Assembly: GCA_024275855.1 (NCBI GenBank)
Contig: JAJRYL010000169.1
Span: forward strand, 1 to 10,377
Reading direction: 5' to 3'
Origin: Deltaproteobacteria bacterium
GTDB taxonomy: Bacteria > Desulfobacterota > GWC2-55-46 > JADFVP01
Length of the DNA stretch: 10,377 nt
The translations under genes were made by a program, and so were the position numbers. Of this stretch, positions 1 to 10,377 are shown piece by piece (position 1 is the stretch's first letter; every line of letters begins with the position of its first letter). The notes beneath the pieces are model-generated. The model did not search any database. It worked only from the letters and a program-made list of their open reading frames with translations, and had not been told where the DNA came from.

Positions 1-2
1 AC

Positions 3-2249
<2,247 letters not shown>

Positions 2250-2277
2250 CACCCCGGCATTGCTCCCTTGTCTGCCG

Positions 2278-2316
2278 TGCCGGAGTTTTACGCTCCGGCA
2301 ATAGCGCAAAGAGCGT
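2278..2316 (+). promoter_or_regulatory. Two overlapping, mutually exclusive hairpins between icd and aclB
   Basis: The 165-base icd-aclB gap holds a perfect 8-bp hairpin (TGCCGGAG at 2278-2285 pairing with CTCCGGCA at 2293-2300, 7-base loop). The base run ACGCTC at 2290-2295 can instead pair with GAGCGT at 2311-2316, which would open the first hairpin. No U-tract follows either stem, so a rho-independent terminator is unlikely. An mRNA processing or stability element, or a weak attenuator, are the options. The rest of the gap is AT-rich near 2375-2385, but I could not identify a convincing -35/-10 pair. The function is unknown. Confidence 0.35.
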
Positions 2317-2414
2317 GAACGGAAAAAGAGTTTAAGGGCCCCTGCGTGCTTCTTTTAAGGTTATCGCGGGCGGCTTTATATAAGTTTGGCTAAACAGTCT
2401 AATGGAGGTAGCAG

Positions 2415-3680
2415 ATGCAGTTAACAGGACTTCTCTGGGGCGGCAAATTACTCAATTATGTTGAGTACCCCAGCGCTACAGTGCTTGGCCCGGAGGCGAG
2501 TACCGACGATATTAAGAACCTTATAAAGAAGTGCGGCTCGGTCTTTATAAAGCCTATCTTCAAGGGCGGTGTAGGTAAAAAAGGCAAGAGCGGCCTTATC
2601 GGCAGGGCGGAAGATATTACCCACGCGCTCGCTGAAAAGGAGCGGCTCTACTTCTGCGAACATGTTCACGGAACGACCTGCGCCAAGGCCGACGGCGTAA
2701 CATTCGAGGGTTCCGTGGCTGCGGAGTACGAGGTCTACTTCTCTATATCGGACTCCACGCTCTACCGAGCGCCGACAATGACCATTACCCATCACGGCGG
2801 CGTAGATATCGAAGAGCTTGACAGCGACCAGATCGTAGAGGTTCCCTTCGACCCGCTTACAGGTCTTAAGAGTTTTCATATCTCCAACGCGCTGACTAAA
2901 CTCGGCGCCCCCAAAGAGATAATAAGCCCTTTGGTGCAGAACCTGCCTAAGCTCTGGACGCTTTATAACAACTACGGCATGAACACGCTTGAGATAAACC
3001 CTATTCGCATGTCGCCAAACGCCAAAGGCAGGCTCGTTCCGGTAGCCTGCGACTTCAAGTGCGGTTTCGATATAGACAACCCGGCGTGGAAACGGCTCGA
3101 TCTACCGTCGCACCTCTTTGCCTCCGACTACTCGGAGTTCGAGCAGGAGATAAACCAGCTTCGTACATATCAGGGGCAAAGCGATGTTTTTGTTATGAAT
3201 CCTAAAGGCACTATCACCGCCCCGACATTCGGCGGCGGAGCCAACGCGCTTGTTACCGAGCTGCTTGGCGACCGTGCCACCATCAGTTCCGACTTTGGCG
3301 GAAACCCGCCGTATGAAAAGATGTTCCAGATCTCGCAGATAGTCTTCAAGTACTGGCTCGCGCAATCTAACGTGCTCTTTATTATCGGCGGCAAGGCTAA
3401 CAATACCGATATTTACGAGACCTTCCGCGCAATGGCCGACGCCCTTAGAGAGTACTTTCACATACACGGCCCTACGCCACTGTATGTAGTTGTAGGAAGA
3501 GGCGGCCCGAACCTTATCAGAGGCATGGGCTATATGCGCGATACGTTAGAGAACCTTAAGCTCCCGTACAGGCTCTTCGGTCACGACTCCGCTATGAGCG
3601 AAGTCGTCAACTACGCGATGGCGGCCGATATCTGGATGCAGGACGAGGGGCGCGCAGCGCTTTCTAAAAAGCTCGCCTGA
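2415..3680 (+). CDS. aclB: ATP-citrate lyase, small subunit (ATP-grasp and citrate-binding domains)
   Basis: This subunit binds ATP and citrate in the cleavage of citrate to acetyl-CoA and oxaloacetate. The 421 residues are close to the roughly 400 of the two-subunit bacterial enzymes. The N-terminal half is a succinyl-CoA-synthetase-beta-like ATP-grasp: the FIKP lysine is at 46, a Gly/Lys-rich loop (GVGKKGKSG) at 52-60, and the metal-site motif EINP at 193-196 with Asp213 downstream. The C-terminal half (about 255-410) is the citrate-binding domain. It has GGGAN at 273-277, GGKANNT at 325-331 and GRGGPN at 361-366, corresponding to human ACLY Asn346, Thr348 and Arg379, which contact citrate. 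The start is supported by GGAGG at 2404-2408, six bases before the ATG. The subunit partners with the product of the gene 94 bases downstream. Naming of the A and B subunits varies between organisms. A stand-alone citryl-CoA synthetase subunit is less likely because the partner carries its own lyase domain. Confidence 0.92.
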   Translation: MQLTGLLWGGKLLNYVEYPSATVLGPEASTDDIKNLIKKCGSVFIKPIFKGGVGKKGKSGLIGRAEDITHALAEKERLYFCEHVHGTTCAKADGVTFEGSVAAEYEVYFSISDSTLYRAPTMTITHHGGVDIEELDSDQIVEVPFDPLTGLKSFHISNALTKLGAPKEIISPLVQNLPKLWTLYNNYGMNTLEINPIRMSPNAKGRLVPVACDFKCGFDIDNPAWKRLDLPSHLFASDYSEFEQEINQLRTYQGQSDVFVMNPKGTITAPTFGGGANALVTELLGDRATISSDFGGNPPYEKMFQISQIVFKYWLAQSNVLFIIGGKANNTDIYETFRAMADALREYFHIHGPTPLYVVVGRGGPNLIRGMGYMRDTLENLKLPYRLFGHDSAMSEVVNYAMAADIWMQDEGRAALSKKLA

Positions 3681-3701
3681 CCCGGCTTGATCTTAAAAAT
3701 A

Positions 3702-3749
3702 GAGCAGGCGTTGCTGCTCAGGACGATATTGAGTTGTTCATATCAACTT
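3702..3749 (+). promoter_or_regulatory. Pair of small hairpins between aclB and aclA
   Basis: The 94-base gap holds two inverted repeats. GAGCAG at 3702-3707 pairs with CTGCTC at 3714-3719 across a 6-base loop. AGTTG at 3732-3736 pairs with CAACT at 3744-3748 across a 7-base loop, with one extra G-U pair outside. Neither is followed by a T-run, so full termination is not expected and the two subunit genes probably share a transcript. The hairpins could tune the relative amounts of the two subunits or protect mRNA ends. This is inference only. Confidence 0.3.
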
Positions 3750-3774
3750 CATTTAAAACAAGAGGCATTCAGTT

Positions 3775-6486
3775 ATGCATAAAGACGGCGTTGAGGGATT
3801 TTCTTACTATTTAGGGGTTAACTCGCTAAGCGAACTCGCTACAAGGGACGACCGGGTCTGTGTTCTCAATATTACGGGTAATGAATCGCGCACAGTCACC
3901 CCTGTAAGCCATGTATATTCTGGCGGCAATATAGTCTTCGGCACAAGCCCCGGGCGCAGCGGTCAAACCGTTTCCACCTCCATAGGCAAGATACCCGTCT
4001 ACAACTCTATTAAAGAGGGTATCGATGCGGGGCATAAGTTCAACACCGCTGTCATATACCTGCCTCCATCAGGCGTAAAAGACGGCGTGGCAGAGGCGGT
4101 GCGGCATAACCCCGACCTTACCAAGATAGTTATACTGACCGAAAAGGTCTCGGCAAGCGACGCGCGTATCGTTCGCGCGATCTGTCAGGCCAACGGCGTA
4201 GACGTATTCGGAGCCAACTGCTTGGGGCTTGCCGACGCCTGGAACAAGGTACGCATAGGCGGCGCGCTTGGCGGCTCTAAACCGGACGAGTCGCTGGTAA
4301 AGGGCTCCGTAGCACTCTTTTCAAATTCAGGCAACTTTACCACCACCATTGCCGTATACCTGCTTACGCACGGCTGGGGTACGACTACCTCTGTTTCGAG
4401 CGGCAAGGACGTTTATATCCATTACGCCCCCAAAGAGTTCTTTCACGCGCTCGATAACGACGACAGGAGCAAGTGCGCCGTTATCTACACGGAGCCGGGC
4501 GGGTACTACGAGCACGGCCTTAGTATAAACAAACCGACCGTGGCCTGCGTTGTAGGCCGCTGGAAGGCGCGCCTTACCAAGGCATGCGGCCATGCCGGAA
4601 GCCTTGCGGGCAGCGGCGACGACGCCGCCGCCAAAGAGAAGTGGTACATGGAGTACTTCGGCGTAGACGATATCTATACTCCGGAAAACCCCGTAGTCTC
4701 TAAAAAAGGCGCTATCGTAATCAATATCGCCCATATTCCAGAGGCCATGACCGCCGTTATGAAGCTCAATAACATAGAGCCGGACTTTGCGCCAAAGGGC
4801 AACCTTTCCCTTAAGCCGTGGTTTGCCAACGACTGCGGGCTCGACCTGCCGGACTCTTTAAAGCTCGATGTTGTTACCGCGGTTGAACCGTACAATGAGC
4901 AGATAGAGATTATAAACAGCCAGACCGGCGCCCAGTTCCCCCGTCAGGCTATGAAGGATACGAGCGGAGTCTCTATGATGGACCCCAAGACTCAGGTCTC
5001 AAGAATCCACAATACCTCTATACTCGACTCCTCTAAAAAGTCTCTCGAAGAGAACCTCGTCTTCGCGGTTACAAGAGAGTATCCATGCGAATACGGAAGA
5101 GACCTTGCCAACATAATCTTTAACGCCGGGCTGAACCACCACGGCACCGGGGCGCTCGCAGCCTCGAATGCCGCAAGGGAGGCGGGCAGTTCGCCAAATA
5201 CCGTTATCTCGGCCGCCGTTGCGGTAATAGGCCCGAAGCTGGTCGCTCCCGCGACCGATACCGCAAAACTCCTGCTCGGCCTCTTCGAGCACACGGGTAT
5301 GGAATCGCCAACAGAGGGTTTCGATTACACGAAGATATTAAAAGAGGCTGATGCGCAGGCGCTTGCCGGACTTAAGGCTTCTGAAAACGATGAAATGGCC
5401 GAAACTATACTTAAAAAGATAGATTCTCTCTACCATAAGTCGGTCTTCATAGAGTTTGTTAAAGAGGCGACAGACGGCAAGCCCTCTACCGGCGCTATAC
5501 TCGCCGCCGTATGGATGACGCTTGGCTGGTCGCCGCTTGTAAACATAACCATTTCCAAGATAACCATAACCACGCTTCCGTGGCACTCTCTTATCTTCTC
5601 TACAATGGTGGGTTGCTCCGTAGGCGAGGGCAGCCATACGGAAGATTCGTTCTGCGGTGTAAAGTCCGAGGAGCTTATAAACGACTGGTCGTTTACCGAG
5701 GCCGCTTTTTTAGCGCTTATAGGCAGAAGGCCGGACGAAAAAGAGCTTTTCGAGTTCTCTACGCTTCTTGGGCTTATCATAACGAACGGGCCGGGCACTA
5801 TCTCGGCGCAGGGCTGTAAAGGCGCGGTAAGCGCCGACGGGCCGGAAGACCCGGGCAGGGTGCAGATAAACAAGGCCGCTATCGGCTTTATGACACACAC
5901 CGGTTTTGCCCACGGCGGCAACGGTTACGAGGCTATAGCCTTTTTGATAAAGCAGTTTAAAAAGGCGGGGCTTAAAGACCCGTCGGACGAAAAACACGGG
6001 CTCGACTTGAAGGCCATAGCCGATAAGTGCGCTATTGAGTACTTCAACTATAAAAAAGAGCAGAAGGCGCTCGGCAATATCGAGTATAAAAAGATACCGT
6101 GCGTAAACCACCCGATCTTCAAGGGCAAGGACGTTAACTTCGACCCGCGCGAGCGTTTCGTAACCGAACTCTTTGGCGAGAAGAAGATATATAACGTCTT
6201 TTTAGACTTCTACGGCAAGCTCGTTCAGGCGCTCTTCGACAACAAGGTGAGCAAGAACGTCTATTGCGTAAACGTAGACGCCGTAATAGCCGTTATTCTC
6301 CTGAAGGTCGTATGGGAGGCCTTCTCTTCAGGCAAAATGGGAGACGAAGAGGTTGAGTCGGCCGGTTTTACAACCTTCCTTTTCGGAAGAATGATAGGCT
6401 GCGCCGCTGAGGTAGACGACCATATAAACAGGGGACGTAATATGGATACCAGAACAGCGGCCTCCAAATGCAACTTCGTAGGTTGA
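3775..6486 (+). CDS. aclA: ATP-citrate lyase, large subunit, unusually long (CoA-ligase plus two citrate-synthase-like modules)
   Basis: This subunit forms citryl-CoA through a phosphohistidine and cleaves it to acetyl-CoA and oxaloacetate. Residues about 25-165 form a succinyl-CoA-synthetase-alpha-like CoA-binding domain. Residues about 175-300 form the ligase domain, with SNSGN at 183-187, YTEPGG at 238-243 (Glu240 matching the Glu that supports the phosphohistidine) and GHAGS at 272-276 (His273 as the phosphohistidine). The remainder is citrate-synthase-like. At 903 residues it is about 300 longer than classical AclA (about 608 in Chlorobium). By manual alignment the excess is a second lyase-type module: one spans about 390-620 and the other about 621-895. 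The start is supported by AGAGG at 3761-3765. The preceding gene encodes the partner subunit, and a strong terminator follows. The ATP-citrate lyase call is secure. Which module is catalytic is not clear. The protein may belong to the deep-branching ATP-citrate lyase type reported in Leptospirillum, Nitrospira and Magnetococcus, but I could not compare it. Confidence 0.88.
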   Translation: MHKDGVEGFSYYLGVNSLSELATRDDRVCVLNITGNESRTVTPVSHVYSGGNIVFGTSPGRSGQTVSTSIGKIPVYNSIKEGIDAGHKFNTAVIYLPPSGVKDGVAEAVRHNPDLTKIVILTEKVSASDARIVRAICQANGVDVFGANCLGLADAWNKVRIGGALGGSKPDESLVKGSVALFSNSGNFTTTIAVYLLTHGWGTTTSVSSGKDVYIHYAPKEFFHALDNDDRSKCAVIYTEPGGYYEHGLSINKPTVACVVGRWKARLTKACGHAGSLAGSGDDAAAKEKWYMEYFGVDDIYTPENPVVSKKGAIVINIAHIPEAMTAVMKLNNIEPDFAPKGNLSLKPWFANDCGLDLPDSLKLDVVTAVEPYNEQIEIINSQTGAQFPRQAMKDTSGVSMMDPKTQVSRIHNTSILDSSKKSLEENLVFAVTREYPCEYGRDLANIIFNAGLNHHGTGALAASNAAREAGSSPNTVISAAVAVIGPKLVAPATDTAKLLLGLFEHTGMESPTEGFDYTKILKEADAQALAGLKASENDEMAETILKKIDSLYHKSVFIEFVKEATDGKPSTGAILAAVWMTLGWSPLVNITISKITITTLPWHSLIFSTMVGCSVGEGSHTEDSFCGVKSEELINDWSFTEAAFLALIGRRPDEKELFEFSTLLGLIITNGPGTISAQGCKGAVSADGPEDPGRVQINKAAIGFMTHTGFAHGGNGYEAIAFLIKQFKKAGLKDPSDEKHGLDLKAIADKCAIEYFNYKKEQKALGNIEYKKIPCVNHPIFKGKDVNFDPRERFVTELFGEKKIYNVFLDFYGKLVQALFDNKVSKNVYCVNVDAVIAVILLKVVWEAFSSGKMGDEEVESAGFTTFLFGRMIGCAAEVDDHINRGRNMDTRTAASKCNFVG
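4942..6459 (+). other. Tandem duplication of the citryl-CoA-lyase (citrate-synthase-like) module inside aclA
   Basis: Protein-level repeat within aclA: module A covers residues about 390-620 (bases 4942-5634) and module B about 621-895 (5635-6459). Four segments align between them in the same order: REYPCEYGRDL (434-444) with GRRPDEKELFE (650-660); GLNHHGTGALAAS (452-464) with the ITNGPGTISAQ segment (669-679); KKIDSLYH (547-554) with KKIPCVNH (772-779); and MVGC (611-614) with MIGC (873-876). Against the citrate-synthase triad, numbered as in human ACLY (His900, His975, Asp1026), A has His456 and His554 but Gly573, while B has Asn671, His779 and Asp835. Module A is shorter in the helical region between the second His and the Asp position. 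The alignment was made by eye. Confidence 0.55.
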
Positions 6487-6531
6487 TCTGTCGCAAAATA
6501 AAAGGCTCTAATATCCGGTCTTTACTCTCTT

Positions 6532-6571
6532 AAAAAAAACGGTTCGGGTTTATAATCCGGGCCGTTTTTTT
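6532..6571 (+). terminator. Rho-independent terminator after aclA
   Basis: A run of eight A (6532-6539) followed by CGGTTCGGG (6540-6548) pairs with TCCGGGCCG (6556-6564) plus seven T (6565-6571) across a 7-base loop. The nine core pairs include three G-U wobbles, and the A and T tracts extend the stem. The T-run on the + strand terminates the icd-aclB-aclA unit 45 bases after the aclA stop codon. The symmetric A-tract would also stop transcription coming from the other side, but no minus-strand gene is seen here. Confidence 0.92.
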
Positions 6572-6613
6572 ATATCCGTAGAAGTTCACGAATTGATTCT
6601 TTTAACGATTTAG

Positions 6614-6641
6614 TTGACTTGTCCCCATACCGTGATATAAC
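6614..6641 (+). promoter_or_regulatory. Predicted sigma70 promoter of the pilus-assembly cluster
   Basis: TTGACT (6614-6619) and TATAAC (6636-6641) each match the consensus at five of six positions, with a 16-base spacer. TG at 6633-6634 makes it an extended -10. It lies directly behind the aclA terminator in AT-rich DNA, so the secretion/pilus block should have its own transcript. Transcription would start near 6648, giving a leader of about 34 bases before the ATPase gene. No sigma54-type GG/GC element pair was seen. Confidence 0.6.
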
Positions 6642-6681
6642 CATTTAATAAATAACGCAAAAGACCGATATAAAAAAAACC

Positions 6682-8388
6682 ATGATAATTACTAAAAATA
6701 AACAGCGCCTCGGCGATATTCTTGTTGATAACGGCCTGCTTACCACCGTTCAGCTCGAAGAGGCCTTAAGGGTAGGCAAACGGACAAGAGAACGCATTGG
6801 CAAGGTAGTGGTAAACCTCGGTTACGCTACGGAAGAGGACATTGCCACCGCGCTTGGCATACAGTTCGGCATTCCTTATATTATGCTTACCAAGAGCATT
6901 GCCGATACCGAAGTTCTTAAACTTGTCCCCGAGACCGCCGCGCGTAAGTACAACCTTGTGCCGGTTACCCTTGAGGACGATGTGTTGAAGGTCGCTATGC
7001 TCGACCCTATCGACGTTGTGGCTATAGACGCTATCAACGAGATTACCGGTTATCATGTAGAGCCGCTCGTAAGCACCGAGACAGAGATAGCGAAGGCTAT
7101 AAATCAGTACTACGGCATGGAGGGAACCTTTGAGGATATGGTCGCCAAGGCGGCCGATAATGCCGATATAGAACTTATGCCGGGCGAAGAGACCTCGGAT
7201 AAGCTTCATAAAATAGCCGGAGAGACCTCTGTTGTTCAGCTTGTAAATATGATGATTTCGCGCGCCGTTATGGACGGTGTTTCCGATATTCATATAGAGC
7301 CGGATGAAGATACGCTTCGTGTGCGTTTCAGGATAGACGGGGTGCTTATGGAGTCCGCTAATCTGAAGATGAAGATGCACCCTGCTGTAATATCGCGCCT
7401 GAAGGTTCTCGGAGACCTCGATATAGCGGAAAAGAGGCTGCCGCAGGATGGCCGTTTTGTCATTAAGGTAGCGAGCCGCGACATAGACGTAAGGCTCTCG
7501 ACGCTGCCGACTATCTTTGGCGAAAAGGTGGTGATGAGGCTGCTCGACAAGGGTAAGATGATACTCGACATAGAGAGGCTTACCCCTGTGCCGGAGACAC
7601 TCGACGCGCTTAAAGAAGTGGTGAAGAGGCCCCACGGCATGATTCTCTTGACAGGGCCGACCGGCAGCGGTAAGACAACCACCGCTTATACCCTGCTAAG
7701 CATGCTCAACACTATGGACAAAAATCTCGTAACCGTGGAAGACCCCGTGGAATACCATTTGAAACGGGTTAATCAGGTTCATGTAAACCCAAAAGTTGGT
7801 ATTACCTTCGCCTCAGCGCTCAGACACATTCTGCGCCAGGACCCGGACGTGGTTCTAATAGGTGAGATACGGGATAAAGAGACCGCCGAGATTGCCATAC
7901 ACGCCGCCCTTACCGGGCACGTAGTCATCTCTACCATTCATACAAACGACGCTGTAGGCACGGTCTCGCGGCTGCTCAACATGGGTATAGAGCCTTACCT
8001 GGTCTCTTCCTCCCTGAGTTGTATTGTCGGACAGAGGCTTGTCAGGAAGTTGTGCGAGAGCTGCAAACAAGAGTACACGCCGGAGCCGGAACTGCTAAAT
8101 GAGCTTGGAGTGCGGTTTCCTGTAGATAAGGTTCCTAAATTTTATAAAGAGGCGGGCTGCACGGAGTGCAAGGGTACCGGGTTTAAGGGACGAATTGGGA
8201 TATACGAGGTTCTATTGCCCGATGATACCATAAGGGCTTCGATAGTCGCCCTCAAAGACAGTTCCGTAATTAGCGACCTTGCCAGAAAACGGGGTTTTAA
8301 ACCGATGAGAATTCAGGGTGTAAAGACCGCTATGACCGGCAAGACTACGCTTGAAGAGGTGTTGAATGCTACCCAGATATTCGAATAA
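6682..8388 (+). CDS. gspE: GspE/PilB/MshE-family assembly ATPase
   Basis: Cytoplasmic hexameric ATPase powering pilus or pseudopilus extension. The 568 residues fit the PilB/GspE family. Residues about 8-62 form an MshEN-type domain with two partial motif copies: RLGDILVDNGLL (9-20) followed by Leu25 and Ala28-Leu29, and a second copy from Ile39-Gly40 to Gly47 and Ala57-Leu58. Such domains bind c-di-GMP in MshE. The motor core has Walker A GPTGSGKT (325-332), an Asp box with Glu353-Asp354, Walker B VLIGEIRD (391-398) and a His box around His420. Cys458, Cys461, Cys493 and Cys496 form the zinc tetracysteine motif seen in extension ATPases and absent from PilT. No good Shine-Dalgarno sequence precedes the ATG, only an A-rich leader, but the start fits the family's N-terminus. 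The gspF-like gene begins 16 bases after the stop codon. Whether the system is a T2SS, a T4P or an MSHA pilus is inferred from the neighbours, and MSHA-like fits best. Confidence 0.93.
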   Translation: MIITKNKQRLGDILVDNGLLTTVQLEEALRVGKRTRERIGKVVVNLGYATEEDIATALGIQFGIPYIMLTKSIADTEVLKLVPETAARKYNLVPVTLEDDVLKVAMLDPIDVVAIDAINEITGYHVEPLVSTETEIAKAINQYYGMEGTFEDMVAKAADNADIELMPGEETSDKLHKIAGETSVVQLVNMMISRAVMDGVSDIHIEPDEDTLRVRFRIDGVLMESANLKMKMHPAVISRLKVLGDLDIAEKRLPQDGRFVIKVASRDIDVRLSTLPTIFGEKVVMRLLDKGKMILDIERLTPVPETLDALKEVVKRPHGMILLTGPTGSGKTTTAYTLLSMLNTMDKNLVTVEDPVEYHLKRVNQVHVNPKVGITFASALRHILRQDPDVVLIGEIRDKETAEIAIHAALTGHVVISTIHTNDAVGTVSRLLNMGIEPYLVSSSLSCIVGQRLVRKLCESCKQEYTPEPELLNELGVRFPVDKVPKFYKEAGCTECKGTGFKGRIGIYEVLLPDDTIRASIVALKDSSVISDLARKRGFKPMRIQGVKTAMTGKTTLEEVLNATQIFE

Positions 8389-8403
8389 CTTAAGGGCGTC
8401 AGG

Positions 8404-9633
8404 GTGAAAGCTTACCAGTATAAGGCACGCGACAGGGAAGGGGCGCTGGTTACCGGCACGCTCGAAGCCGATAACGTGCGCTCACTTGAGTCGTCGCTCG
8501 ACAGGATGGGCCTTATTCCCATTAAAATATCCGCCTCAAAGTTCGGTTCTACGGTTAGCGGAGCCACGGGTAAGGGTGGCTGGTTATTCGCCAAAAAGAT
8601 TACTACTCAGGATATCGTGCTCTTCAGCCGCCAGCTCGCTACGCTCTTCGGCGCCGGAGTGCCGTTAACGCGCGCGCTCTTTACGCTTGAGAAGCAGATG
8701 TCTAACCCCAAGTTCGTAGCGGTTATTACCGCGCTTAGAGAAGACGTTGAAGAGGGCTCAACGTTCGCGGCGGCAATAGCTAACCAGAAAGAGGTCTTTC
8801 CGGAAATCTATTCCAACATGATAGAGGCCGGCGAGGCGGGAGGCATGCTCGACGAGGTACTCGACAGGCTCGCGTCGATATTTGAAAAAAGCGCCGAAAA
8901 CGCCGCCAAAGTTAAGTCCGCCACACTGTACCCTAAAATCGTAATAGGCGCTATAGTCATAGCGATAATTGTGCTTATGAACTTTGTGGTGCCGCGTTTC
9001 GCCAAGATGTACGCCTCTTTCGACGTAGCGCTTCCGTTGCCCACACGCATGCTTATGGCCATGTCCGATCTTTTTGTAGGTTACTGGTACTTCGCTGTAA
9101 TAATTGTCTTCTCCGTTTACTTCGGACTTAAAAGCTACCTTAAAACGGAGAAGGGCAAGGCGGCCAGAGACGCTTTTATACTCAGGCTGCCTATCTTCGG
9201 CCCGCTTATTCAACGCTCAACGCTCTCTCGTTTTGCCCGCGTGCTCGGTTCCATGTACAGAAGCGGGCTGCCGATACTTCAGTCTCTCGACATTGTTTCG
9301 CGCGCCGTTGATAATAACTCGATAAAAAAAGAGATCAAGATGATAGAGGCGGATGTAAGGGAGGGGAAAAATATTGCCGAACCGATGACAAAATGCAAAC
9401 ACTTCGATACAATGGTTGTGCAGATGGTGGCCGTTGGCGAAGAGACCGGTAACCTCGACGAAATGCTCGACAAGGTGGCGGACTACTACGACAAAGAGGT
9501 AGACAACACTATACGAAACCTGACGACTATTTTAGAGCCCGTCCTGCTTGCCTTTATCTTCGGTATAGTGCTCTTTATGGCTCTTGCTATCTTTCTTCCG
9601 ATGTGGGATATACTGCGGGTTGTCAGGCAATGA
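8404..9633 (+). CDS. gspF: GspF/PilC/MshG-family inner-membrane platform protein
   Basis: Polytopic inner-membrane protein that couples the assembly ATPase to (pseudo)pilin insertion. The 409 residues are typical. There are two repeated T2SSF domains. The first, about 70-195, has SRQLATLFGAGVPL (75-88) and GEAGGMLDEVL (143-153). The second, about 273-398, has ARVLGSMYRSGLPI (278-291) and GEETGNLDEML (345-355). Three hydrophobic spans are visible at about 178-197, 226-241 and 376-399, as in the family. The short N-terminal part (YQYKARDREG) is the usual GspF opening. The start codon is GTG, preceded by AAGGG at 8392-8396, only 15 bases after the ATPase stop, so the genes are co-transcribed. 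Its own stop overlaps the start of the next gene. Confidence 0.94.
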   Translation: MKAYQYKARDREGALVTGTLEADNVRSLESSLDRMGLIPIKISASKFGSTVSGATGKGGWLFAKKITTQDIVLFSRQLATLFGAGVPLTRALFTLEKQMSNPKFVAVITALREDVEEGSTFAAAIANQKEVFPEIYSNMIEAGEAGGMLDEVLDRLASIFEKSAENAAKVKSATLYPKIVIGAIVIAIIVLMNFVVPRFAKMYASFDVALPLPTRMLMAMSDLFVGYWYFAVIIVFSVYFGLKSYLKTEKGKAARDAFILRLPIFGPLIQRSTLSRFARVLGSMYRSGLPILQSLDIVSRAVDNNSIKKEIKMIEADVREGKNIAEPMTKCKHFDTMVVQMVAVGEETGNLDEMLDKVADYYDKEVDNTIRNLTTILEPVLLAFIFGIVLFMALAIFLPMWDILRVVRQ

Positions 9634-10064
9634 ACCGCCCGAACAGCGTCTCCAATACGTTAAGAAACGAAAACGGAAGAACGGTTTTAGAGACGCTGCT
9701 AACGCTCTTATTTGTGCTTATCGTTCTGATTATAGCTATAGACCGTTTTACCGCCTCTATAAACACCGTACGCGAAGGTGCGTTGCGAATAGAACTCTCT
9801 AACCTTAGAAGCGGGGTAAACCTTTTTGCCATGACAAAAAGAAGGCTTCCCAAATCGTTGAACGAACTTGTTACCGAGAAGGTCGTGGTTACCAAACAGG
9901 GCATAAACGGGGTTGAGTTTAAGGTACAGATGGTCGGCAGGTACGTGGAGTCGATGACGGTAGGTGAGAACGGGCTTCCGCTCGACCCGTTTGGCAATAC
10001 CTATACTTTTGATCCGGTAAGGGGTATGGTTCATACCACGACAGCGGGGTACGAGTCGTGGTAA
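9630..10064 (+). CDS. GspG-like pseudopilin with class III signal peptide
   Basis: Small prepilin-like protein of 144 residues, probably a minor pilin or pseudopilin of the adjacent assembly system. A basic and polar leader (1-16) ends in the prepilin-peptidase site NENG|RTVLE, giving Glu at +5 of the mature protein, followed by a hydrophobic helix at about 22-38. The +1 residue is Arg (17), where Phe or Met is usual. Near the C-terminus, LPLDPFGNTYTF (116-127) matches the Asp-Pro-x-Gly-Asn-x-Tyr segment that binds calcium in GspG. The ATG at 9630 overlaps the gspF stop as ATGA, indicating translational coupling. An ATG at 9603 would add nine residues lying inside gspF and lengthen the leader, so it was not preferred. 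I cannot assign the protein to a named subfamily. Confidence 0.82.
   Translation: MNRPNSVSNTLRNENGRTVLETLLTLLFVLIVLIIAIDRFTASINTVREGALRIELSNLRSGVNLFAMTKRRLPKSLNELVTEKVVVTKQGINGVEFKVQMVGRYVESMTVGENGLPLDPFGNTYTFDPVRGMVHTTTAGYESW
10034..10063 (+). terminator. 9-bp hairpin over the pseudopilin stop codon (weak terminator or processing site)
   Basis: TACCACGAC (10034-10042) pairs perfectly with GTCGTGGTA (10055-10063) across a 12-base loop, and the stop codon TAA (10062-10064) lies in the 3' arm. The following bases (ATTGTATTTATC) are T-rich but not a true T-run. It could be a partial terminator or a 3'-end stabiliser separating low expression of the assembly genes from higher expression of the pilin downstream. 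Confidence 0.4.
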
Positions 10065-10069
10065 TTGTA

Positions 10070-10169
10070 TTTATCGGGGGGCATATAAGTAAAACAGACC
10101 TTCTTTGTAACAGCGTAAAGGCTCGGGTTTAAGTTCCCGGCCATTATGCCGATAAAAGGATGTACAAAG
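10070..10169 (+). promoter_or_regulatory. Putative structured RNA leader upstream of the pilin gene
   Basis: The 173-base gap before the pilin has more pairing potential than expected. TTTATCGG (10070-10077) pairs with CCGATAAA (10149-10156), and the stem continues after a four-G bulge as CATA (10082-10085) with TATG (10145-10148). Alternatively, GGCATA (10080-10085) pairs with TATGCC (10145-10150). Inside this, GGC-T-CGGG (10120-10127) pairs with CCCGGCC (10136-10142) across an 8-base loop. CTTTGTA (10103-10109) can pair with TACAAAG (10163-10169) outside the closing stem, forming a pseudoknot or a switch. An untranslated regulatory region is the simplest reading, but no known riboswitch class fits well. 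A poor promoter-like pair lies downstream (TTGAAC 10173-10178, TAAAAG 10196-10201). Confidence 0.4.
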
Positions 10170-10237
10170 CGCTTGAACAAAAAATAATGAAATGATAAAA
10201 GTAATTTCTCTAAAAAAAATAATATAAGGAGAACCAG

Positions 10238-10377
10238 ATGATTAGGAACAGTAAAGGTTTTACCCTGATAGAGCTTGTTATGGTCATAGTTATTCTGGCC
10301 ATATTAGCTGCGGTAGCAGTGCCGCGTTTTATAGACCTGCAGGGTGACGCGCGTATATCGACCGCAAAAGGCGTGGC
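10238..10377 (+). CDS. Type IV prepilin, MSHA-like major pilin (3' end outside window)
   Basis: First 46 codons of a prepilin, the building block of a pilus or pseudopilus fibre. A seven-residue leader, MIRNSKG, ends at the canonical prepilin-peptidase site G|FTLIE with Phe at +1 and Glu at +5. A hydrophobic helix (13-28) follows, then [17 protein letters not shown] (29-45), which resembles the start of MSHA pilins (PKFI-LQ-DAR-ST). A strong Shine-Dalgarno AAGGAG (10226-10231) six bases before the ATG suggests high expression, in contrast to the coupled pseudopilin upstream. The gene follows ATPase, platform and pseudopilin genes, so it is probably a main substrate of that machine. The C-terminal domain, needed to tell MshA from other pilins, is not in the window. 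Confidence 0.9.

Follow-up and report, generated by a model that had tools for sequence, protein, structure and literature searches.

Why would the large subunit of an ATP-citrate lyase (ACL) carry two citrate-synthase-like modules in one chain, and which of them does the work? The question is raised by aclA, a gene on a stretch of 10,377 nucleotides from a Deltaproteobacteria bacterium (GenBank assembly GCA_024275855.1, contig JAJRYL010000169.1, positions 1 to 10,377 of the forward strand); this whole stretch is called the window below. An earlier note, made from the sequence alone, had described two modules that have lost complementary catalytic residues and had offered two readings: the modules divided one active site between them, or one is a scaffold and the other uses altered chemistry. 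Our results support the second option. We think it likely that the last module (module B) is the working copy and that the one before it (module A) is a non-catalytic but maintained pseudo-module, both derived from one duplication of a citrate synthase homology (CSH) domain in a type II-like ACL. It does not look as if both modules contributed to a common active site.

3775..6486, + strand: aclA, predicted large subunit of a type II-like ACL, 903 amino acids (citryl-CoA synthetase small-subunit part (CCS-alpha), linker, CSH module A, CSH module B); open reading frame with Pfam matches to CoA_binding and Succ_CoA_lig
4987..5634, + strand: CSH module A, residues 405-620, degenerate, predicted non-catalytic pseudo-CSH; matched by hhalign to module B and to the CSH of single-module proteins
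5635..6483, + strand: CSH module B, residues 621-903, predicted functional CSH module; profile match to 6hxp and to Pfam Citrate_synt

The reading frame has the 903 residues given in the earlier note.

Tandem duplication of the CSH domain

As single sequences, the two modules barely align. The local score between residues 405-620 and 621-903 is 47, and 6 of 1000 shuffles reach it. By profile comparison with hhalign, module A (403-620) matches module B (621-903) with 98.2% over 207 columns (57 diverse tandem proteins), and it matches the CSH of 29 single-module proteins with 98.7%. A second pair of alignments (17 module A sequences; 10 module B and three single-module CSH sequences) gave 99.1%, and the span over all alignments was 207-213 columns. 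The controls against module A gave 0.4% for reversed module B, 0.3% for CCS-alpha and 0.2% for reversed CCS-alpha, and the best of 50 trials with column-shuffled module A profiles reached 2.5%. The module A profile also weakly matches module B in a number of genomes (E about 1e-7 to 1e-4). Because the profile comparison far exceeds chance where single sequences barely align, the tandem duplication in AclA is real, and the earlier claim of two homologous citrate-synthase-like modules is confirmed.

The four recurring motifs noted before were all located, at residues 434/650, 454/670, 547/772 and 611/873. For KKIDSLYH/KKIPCVNH, however, the profile alignments do not bear out homology: the loop of His779 in module B faces a gap in module A, and SVFIEF faces NVFLDF, which places His554 opposite residue ~805.

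A profile of 10 module B and three single-module CSH sequences matches the citryl-CoA lyase 6hxp with E 2.3e-11. All 13 of these sequences match Pfam Citrate_synt at E<=0.1, and the module B of the window itself scores 23.4 bits, under the Pfam cut-off of 27 bits. For the module A segment of the window, nothing was found in Pfam or NCBIfam, and its single sequence found nothing in a PDB search. The module A profile had no meaningful solved relative in the PDB, the best match being DnaC (E 0.25), followed by S100 proteins.

Predicted catalytic residues of module B

Conservation was counted in three sets of homologues (360 in total), each from one protein search: a close tandem set (the best 120 of 2450 matches; 61-87% identical over the C-terminal half), a distant tandem set (the best 120 of 479) and a single-module set (the best 120 of 1175). 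Full-length members make up 108, 112 and 110 of the 120, respectively; the others are fragments or longer. To map the residues, seven single-module CSH domains were combined into a profile, which was then aligned to human ACLY (6hxk) and to Chlorobium AclA (6nzy, 6qcl, 6hxn). In this mapping (profile motif first), TNGPG and ADHGPA meet with Asn on His, HGG and RFGG with His on Phe, GHP and GIGH with His on His, and the two NVD motifs with Asp on Asp. The match to full-length human ACLY has no net gap between profile positions 11-106 and residues 857-952, and here position 54 (Asn) corresponds to 900 and position 89 (HGG His) to 935.

Asn671 (5785..5787, + strand): This residue is aligned to the position of human ACLY His900 in both human ACLY and Chlorobium AclA. 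It is Asn in 359 of the 360 homologues.

His713 (5911..5913, + strand): This is the histidine of the HGG motif (GFAHGGN) at a citrate-synthase His274-type position. It is conserved in 360/360, and the equivalent residue is Phe in human ACLY and Chlorobium AclA. We take it to correspond to the catalytic His274 of citrate synthase (pig numbering), where the set would be His274, His320 and Asp375.

His779 (6109..6111, + strand): The equivalent residue in human ACLY is His975. It is conserved in 360/360.

Arg792 (6148..6150, + strand): This residue of the DPR motif is predicted to bind citrate. It is conserved in 360/360, and the DPR is aligned in 6hxp.

Asp835 (6277..6279, + strand): The equivalent residue in human ACLY is Asp1026. 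It is conserved in 360/360.

Arg872 (6388..6390, + strand): Conserved in 360/360, it is aligned to the GR of human ACLY and is presumably equivalent to Arg1065. Further downstream, Arg893 is kept in 359 of 360 homologues, with one gap.

The earlier assignment of Asn671, His779 and Asp835 to human His900, His975 and Asp1026 therefore holds in this weak-scoring mapping through the single-module profile. The claim of complementary loss does not, since it overlooked His713: the citrate-synthase-type set (His274-, His320- and Asp375-type) is present in module B alone as His713, His779 and Asp835. Module B would lack an equivalent of human His900, yet it carries a citrate-synthase histidine that is absent from type I ACLs, and its catalytic set does not appear short.

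Degeneration and maintenance of module A

Asn454 (5134..5136, + strand): It faces Asn671 in one profile alignment, and His455 does so in another. Among the close relatives, Asn454 is Asn in 111/120 and His455 is His in 74/120.

His456 (5140..5142, + strand): It is not conserved, being His in 50/120 close and 2/120 distant tandem relatives.

His554 (5434..5436, + strand): It is not conserved and does not face His779. His is found in 1/120 close and 0/120 distant relatives.

Gly573 (5491..5493, + strand): It faces Asp835. In close relatives the residue is Asp in 91/120 and Gly in 5/120; in the distant tandem set it is chiefly Glu, Thr or Ser.

Module A had been said to keep both catalytic histidines, His456 and His554. 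Neither is conserved, His456 is not at the first-His position, and His554 lies opposite a different part of module B. Gly573 does stand at the Asp position as proposed, but loss of the Asp is not a trait of the close family. The equivalent of His713 is missing as well: position 489 (Leu489 in the window) is Arg or Lys in 89/120 close relatives and His in 0/120 close and 2/120 distant ones. Position 610, which faces Arg872, is Arg in 0/120 close and 10/120 distant relatives, and the part of module B beyond residue ~876, including Arg893, has no counterpart in module A. The citrate-synthase-type catalytic set is thus replaced by Leu489, a gap at the His779 loop and Gly573. The distant module A sequences cannot be aligned with confidence. 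Counts for individual columns are weaker in that set, but the finding that no catalytic histidine is conserved is not affected.

Other residues of module A are strictly kept. Pro474, Asn475 and Gly486 are found in 240/240 tandem homologues and Trp585 in 236/240; these residues look structural. The length of module A is 212-225 amino acids in 220 full-length tandem proteins. In 58 of the 63 genomes that represent the class its profile has a match (E<=0.001), which in G345 covers only 49 positions; of the five genomes without a match, four are <90% complete and one (G030) is 93% complete, and 43 of 44 good genomes are matched. The mean pairwise identity is 0.32 for module A, 0.54 for module B and 0.66 for CCS-alpha. 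In the two closest pairs of sequences, dN/dS is 0.065 and 0.068 for module A and 0.039 and 0.040 for module B. In more distant pairs, where defined, it is 0.18-0.22 for module A against 0.10-0.12 for module B, with dS near saturation. For this sample, eight of nine relatives tried yielded a frame of 2709 bases, and the distant pairs were partly saturated or undefined. Given the low dN/dS and the constant length, yet an identity of 0.32 versus 0.54, module A is maintained under purifying selection, more loosely than module B.

Single-module relatives and phylogeny

The C-terminal half was matched in 19 of 297 genomes of the phylum, two of which have a single-module form only (L042, L043) and two short stretches only. 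These two proteins and the 120 listed members of the single-module set (P0241-P0360) are ~690 amino acids long and resemble the window protein in having CCS-alpha and a CSH with the signature of module B, namely the same Asn, HGG-His, His, Asp and Arg. They differ in that they have no module A and stand apart from the tandem clade in the tree. Among the 120 listed matches, 110 are 680-720 amino acids long and none has more than one residue in the module A columns 440-600.

The residue at the Asn671 position is Asn in all 120 listed single-module relatives. The Asn of module B thus exists where there is no module A at all, so complementation by module A is not the reason why it arose. We also considered a module A that is encoded separately and acts in trans in single-module species, and rejected it, since a module A profile search of two such genomes (G185 and G320) found none at E<=1. 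In one locus (L046), a single-module aclA follows an AclB with ATP-grasp and Citrate_bind domains.

Among the matches listed, tandem homologues are named from Desulfobacter (uncultured), Desulfosarcina variabilis, Geobacter, Nitrospinota, Spirochaetia, Leptospirales and Lambdaproteobacteria, and single-module homologues from Desulfomonilia, Spirochaetes, Fibrobacteria and Bacteroidetes. A Nitrospinota tandem homologue (P0222) has 882 amino acids and is named partial. In a tree of 45 proteins and three SucD sequences, the two forms separate, with an SH-aLRT of 99 for the tandem clade and 87 for the single clade. The branches to SucD are long, and which form came first cannot be rooted with certainty. 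One origin of the tandem form fits this tree. Type I ACL, citryl-CoA lyase and citrate synthase have a single CSH, and with them parsimony favours one duplication.

AclA as an ACL subunit and its gene neighborhood

The remaining features of the locus are as follows.

3775..4689, + strand: CCS-alpha (citryl-CoA synthetase small-subunit / ASH part), residues 1-305; closest solved relative 6hxq (citryl-CoA synthetase small subunit), E 6.9e-28
4591..4593, + strand: His273, phosphohistidine position in a GHAG motif, aligned to GHAG of 6hxq
4690..4986, + strand: linker/stalk, residues 306-404; runs into module A here and into the sole CSH in single-module relatives
2415..3680, + strand: aclB, 421 amino acids, small subunit with ATP-grasp and citrate-binding domains (Pfam ATP-grasp_2 1.5e-12, Citrate_bind 2.9e-19)
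24..2249, + strand: monomeric NADP-isocitrate dehydrogenase, upstream of aclBA (TIGR00178 equivalog, 1289.5 bits)

The identification of the gene as the large subunit of an ACL is borne out by the features expected of a heteromeric enzyme: an AclB with an ATP-grasp and an ACL citrate-binding domain adjoins AclA, CCS-alpha carries the phosphohistidine, and a CSH module forms the C-terminus. His273 is His in all 347 homologues that have a letter there (13 of 360 are gapped) and is presumably equivalent to human His760. In NCBIfam, AclA matches SucD-like models, and the citryl-CoA lyase models stay below the cut-off; in the search against solved structures, it scores weakly against type I AclA. 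Many aclA genes of this family are named in databases as 'CoA-binding protein' or 'succinyl-CoA synthetase alpha subunit', and several as 'citrate/2-methylcitrate synthase'.

The aclA family is present in 56 of 59 related genomes, in eight of them in pieces only; in the other three (G030, G043, G044), the matches are SucD-like only. One genome (G041) has two full-length tandem aclA copies, at C119:4714-7422 (L006) and C166:99030-101738. Its assembly lists 5% contamination and may be a mixture.

Isocitrate dehydrogenase, aclB and aclA lie on one strand of the window and are followed by type II secretion/pilus-type genes: a T2SSE ATPase with an MshEN domain at 6682-8388 (type II secretion/type IV pilus), a T2SSF membrane protein at 8404-9633, and a small reading frame at 9603-10064 that overlaps the latter and has only a sub-threshold match to T2SSG. 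The order isocitrate dehydrogenase, aclB, aclA is repeated in another genome consisting of a single contig (G012; L049, 9479-15992). In a further genome of the same phylum (L048, 4611-12680), aclB and aclA are followed on the same strand by genes for a fumarate-reductase-like flavoprotein, an iron-sulfur protein and a CCG-domain protein.

The genome of the window is 1.9 Mb in size and 81% complete. It has one citrate synthase match above the Pfam cut-off (441 bits; contig 13, 2620-3681), in which one in-frame TAA was read through. Six related genomes have one citrate synthase match each, without a stop; a true break and an assembly error cannot be told apart. Contig 23 of the same genome carries a sucC-like reading frame (named by eye), a SucD and an oxidoreductase alpha-type reading frame (TIGR03710 match below cut-off). 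The gene context would fit the use of AclBA in a reductive or reversible tricarboxylic acid (TCA) cycle, in either direction.

Comparison with known enzymes

Type II ACL, with Mmc1_3638/3639 and the Endoriftia enzyme as named members, has two subunits and is distant from type I (PMC3522073, PMC6783814, PMC6315080, PMC5459899). Extracts of these descriptions mention neither tandem CSH modules nor the exchange of Asn and His. The primers acl2F1/acl2R1 for type II ACL encode VAKEEWF and NGFEAIA (PMC3522073). The counterparts in the window are AAKEKWY (from residue 285; 3/7 differ) and NGYEAIA (from residue 716; 1/7 differs). An exact NGFEAIA occurs in 17/120 close and 6/120 distant tandem homologues, and the single-module ones differ at 3-4 of 7 positions. 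In Magnetococcus MC-1, citrate cleavage was detected, for which only the genes of a postulated type II ACL come into question (PMC6783814), and Nitrospina is described as having ACL genes of very low similarity (PMC3578206). Because the primer peptides occur in the family, MC-1 cleaves citrate and the low-similarity ACL of Nitrospina goes with a tandem homologue from Nitrospinota, we call the window enzyme type II-like, a predicted class set by primer peptides and literature descriptions. A description of tandem CSH modules in AclA was not found in the titles and abstract openings among the listed matches in open-licence literature; one may be in print.

Type I ACL (human ACLY; Chlorobium AclA, 6hxj/6nzy) resembles the window protein in having CCS-alpha and CSH with equivalents of His975, Asp1026 and the GR. 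It differs in having one CSH, in which His takes the place of Asn671 and Phe that of His713. The single CSH with a histidine at human His900 that marks type I was not found here; there are two CSH modules, and module B has Asn671. The citryl-CoA lyase of Hydrogenobacter (6hxp) is like module B in its HGG histidine (AHGG), later His, DPR and NVD motifs, and citrate synthases share the HGG histidine. In contrast to module B, 6hxp also has a His (DHG) at the Asn671 position, and 6hxp and the citrate synthases are stand-alone enzymes.

An ACL of Desulfobacter postgatei is reportedly named in the title of Moller 1987. The uncultured Desulfobacter tandem homologues (P0205, P0210) belong to the same genus.

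Proposed mechanism and alternative explanations

In the mechanism that we propose, AclB and the CCS-alpha part of AclA would phosphorylate citrate via His273 and make citryl-CoA. One ancestral CSH domain would have been duplicated once to give the C-terminal half, with module B as the working copy. Module A would have kept the fold signature and the length and lost the substrate loop and the ligand residues; its most likely role would be structural, as a partner within the core that the CSH modules form. Tetramers of ACLY are held together via the CSH domains (PMC10115795), hence two tandem chains would supply four CSH modules.

Several points weigh against this proposal. Residues were placed on human ACLY through a low-scoring match (whole-chain E 8.8e-5 for 6hxk, i-Evalue 0.63 and 2.2 for single stretches, and 0.0067 for full-length ACLY). 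The predicted CSH fold of module A comes from profile comparison, with no meaningful match to a solved structure or in Pfam. Module A is not equally stripped everywhere, as the Asp at 573 in 91/120 close and the Arg at 610 in 10/120 distant relatives show. Even the most similar pairs have dS values of around 1 or higher, the SH-aLRT of the single-module clade is just 87, and the tree was flagged for long branches. An assay of any purified member of the family was not found in the literature, as far as the extracts go. Finally, the CSH module of human ACLY has been argued to be allosteric and not catalytic (PMC10115795), so the proposed cleavage of citryl-CoA by module B would be open to the same dispute.

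A wider form of the proposal is possible, though we regard it as doubtful. Types II and I would represent a natural swap in lyase chemistry, with Asn671 and His713 in type II in place of His900 and Phe at the HGG position in type I. On this view, module B would act as a genuine citryl-CoA lyase of the citrate-synthase type, and the CSH of type I would be mainly allosteric. The tandem pseudo-CSH would let an alpha2-beta2 enzyme assemble a core of four CSH modules, B:B' being the catalytic pair and A:A' the structural one; lacking a counterpart of Arg893, module A could not complete the site of module B in trans.

Alternatively, module A could be a CoA-binding or allosteric module, which binds CoA or acetyl-CoA but not citryl-CoA and controls how the ASH part is loaded. 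A role of this kind has been proposed for the entire CSH of human ACLY, where CoA is described as bound across two CSH subunits and the function as allosteric (PMC10115795), and the invariant Pro474, Asn475 and Gly486, the nearly invariant Trp585 and the purifying selection are what such a function would also produce. We consider it unlikely, as no ligand residue of module A was identified, the His779 loop is absent, Arg at the Arg872 position is rare or missing, and the segment of module B beyond ~876 with Arg893 has no counterpart.

It is still less likely that the enzyme is not an ACL and cleaves another tricarboxylic or methyl-branched acyl-CoA, e.g., that of 2-methylcitrate. The weak score to type I AclA, the database names that speak only of a citrate/2-methylcitrate synthase or a CoA-binding protein, and the lack of a biochemically proven purified homologue in the literature extracts would all allow it. 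The Pfam ACL citrate-binding domain of AclB, the neighboring isocitrate dehydrogenase or fumarate-reductase-like genes, and the citrate cleavage of Magnetococcus MC-1 with only postulated type II ACL candidates (PMC6783814) speak against it.

A single active site divided between the modules, with module A giving the first His and module B the Asp in an internal pseudo-dimer, had good reasons to be proposed. The modules are homologous and in one chain, and Gly573 and Asn671 are at catalytic positions. Active sites of citrate synthase are, moreover, completed by the partner subunit. We now regard a division of this kind as very improbable and reject it on residue conservation: His456, His554 and Gly573 vary as described, Asn671 is equally Asn in single-module enzymes, module B has a full citrate-synthase-type set, and module A has no conserved equivalents of His713, His779 and Arg872. 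Least probable of all is an unrelated helical insert that resembles module B by chance; the nearly unalignable single sequences and the lack of meaningful Pfam or PDB matches would suit it, and the profile comparison (98-99% over 207-213 columns, controls at most 2.5%) rejects it.

Significance

ACL is the key enzyme of one CO2-fixation cycle. The enzyme type discussed here is known but poorly characterized; what appears to be new is the tandem variant with an apparently non-catalytic CSH copy. There is dispute over the CSH module of ACL, to which either the cleavage of citryl-CoA or no more than a gating of CoA is ascribed (PMC10115795). A family in which the citrate-synthase histidine is kept and one of the two CSH copies on the chain looks inactive offers a system in which mutants could separate the lyase and the gating models. 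A survey of carbon fixation used the Chlorobium ACL as reference (Table 1 of PMC9802188), and the many aclA genes of this family that go under other names may escape surveys of this kind.

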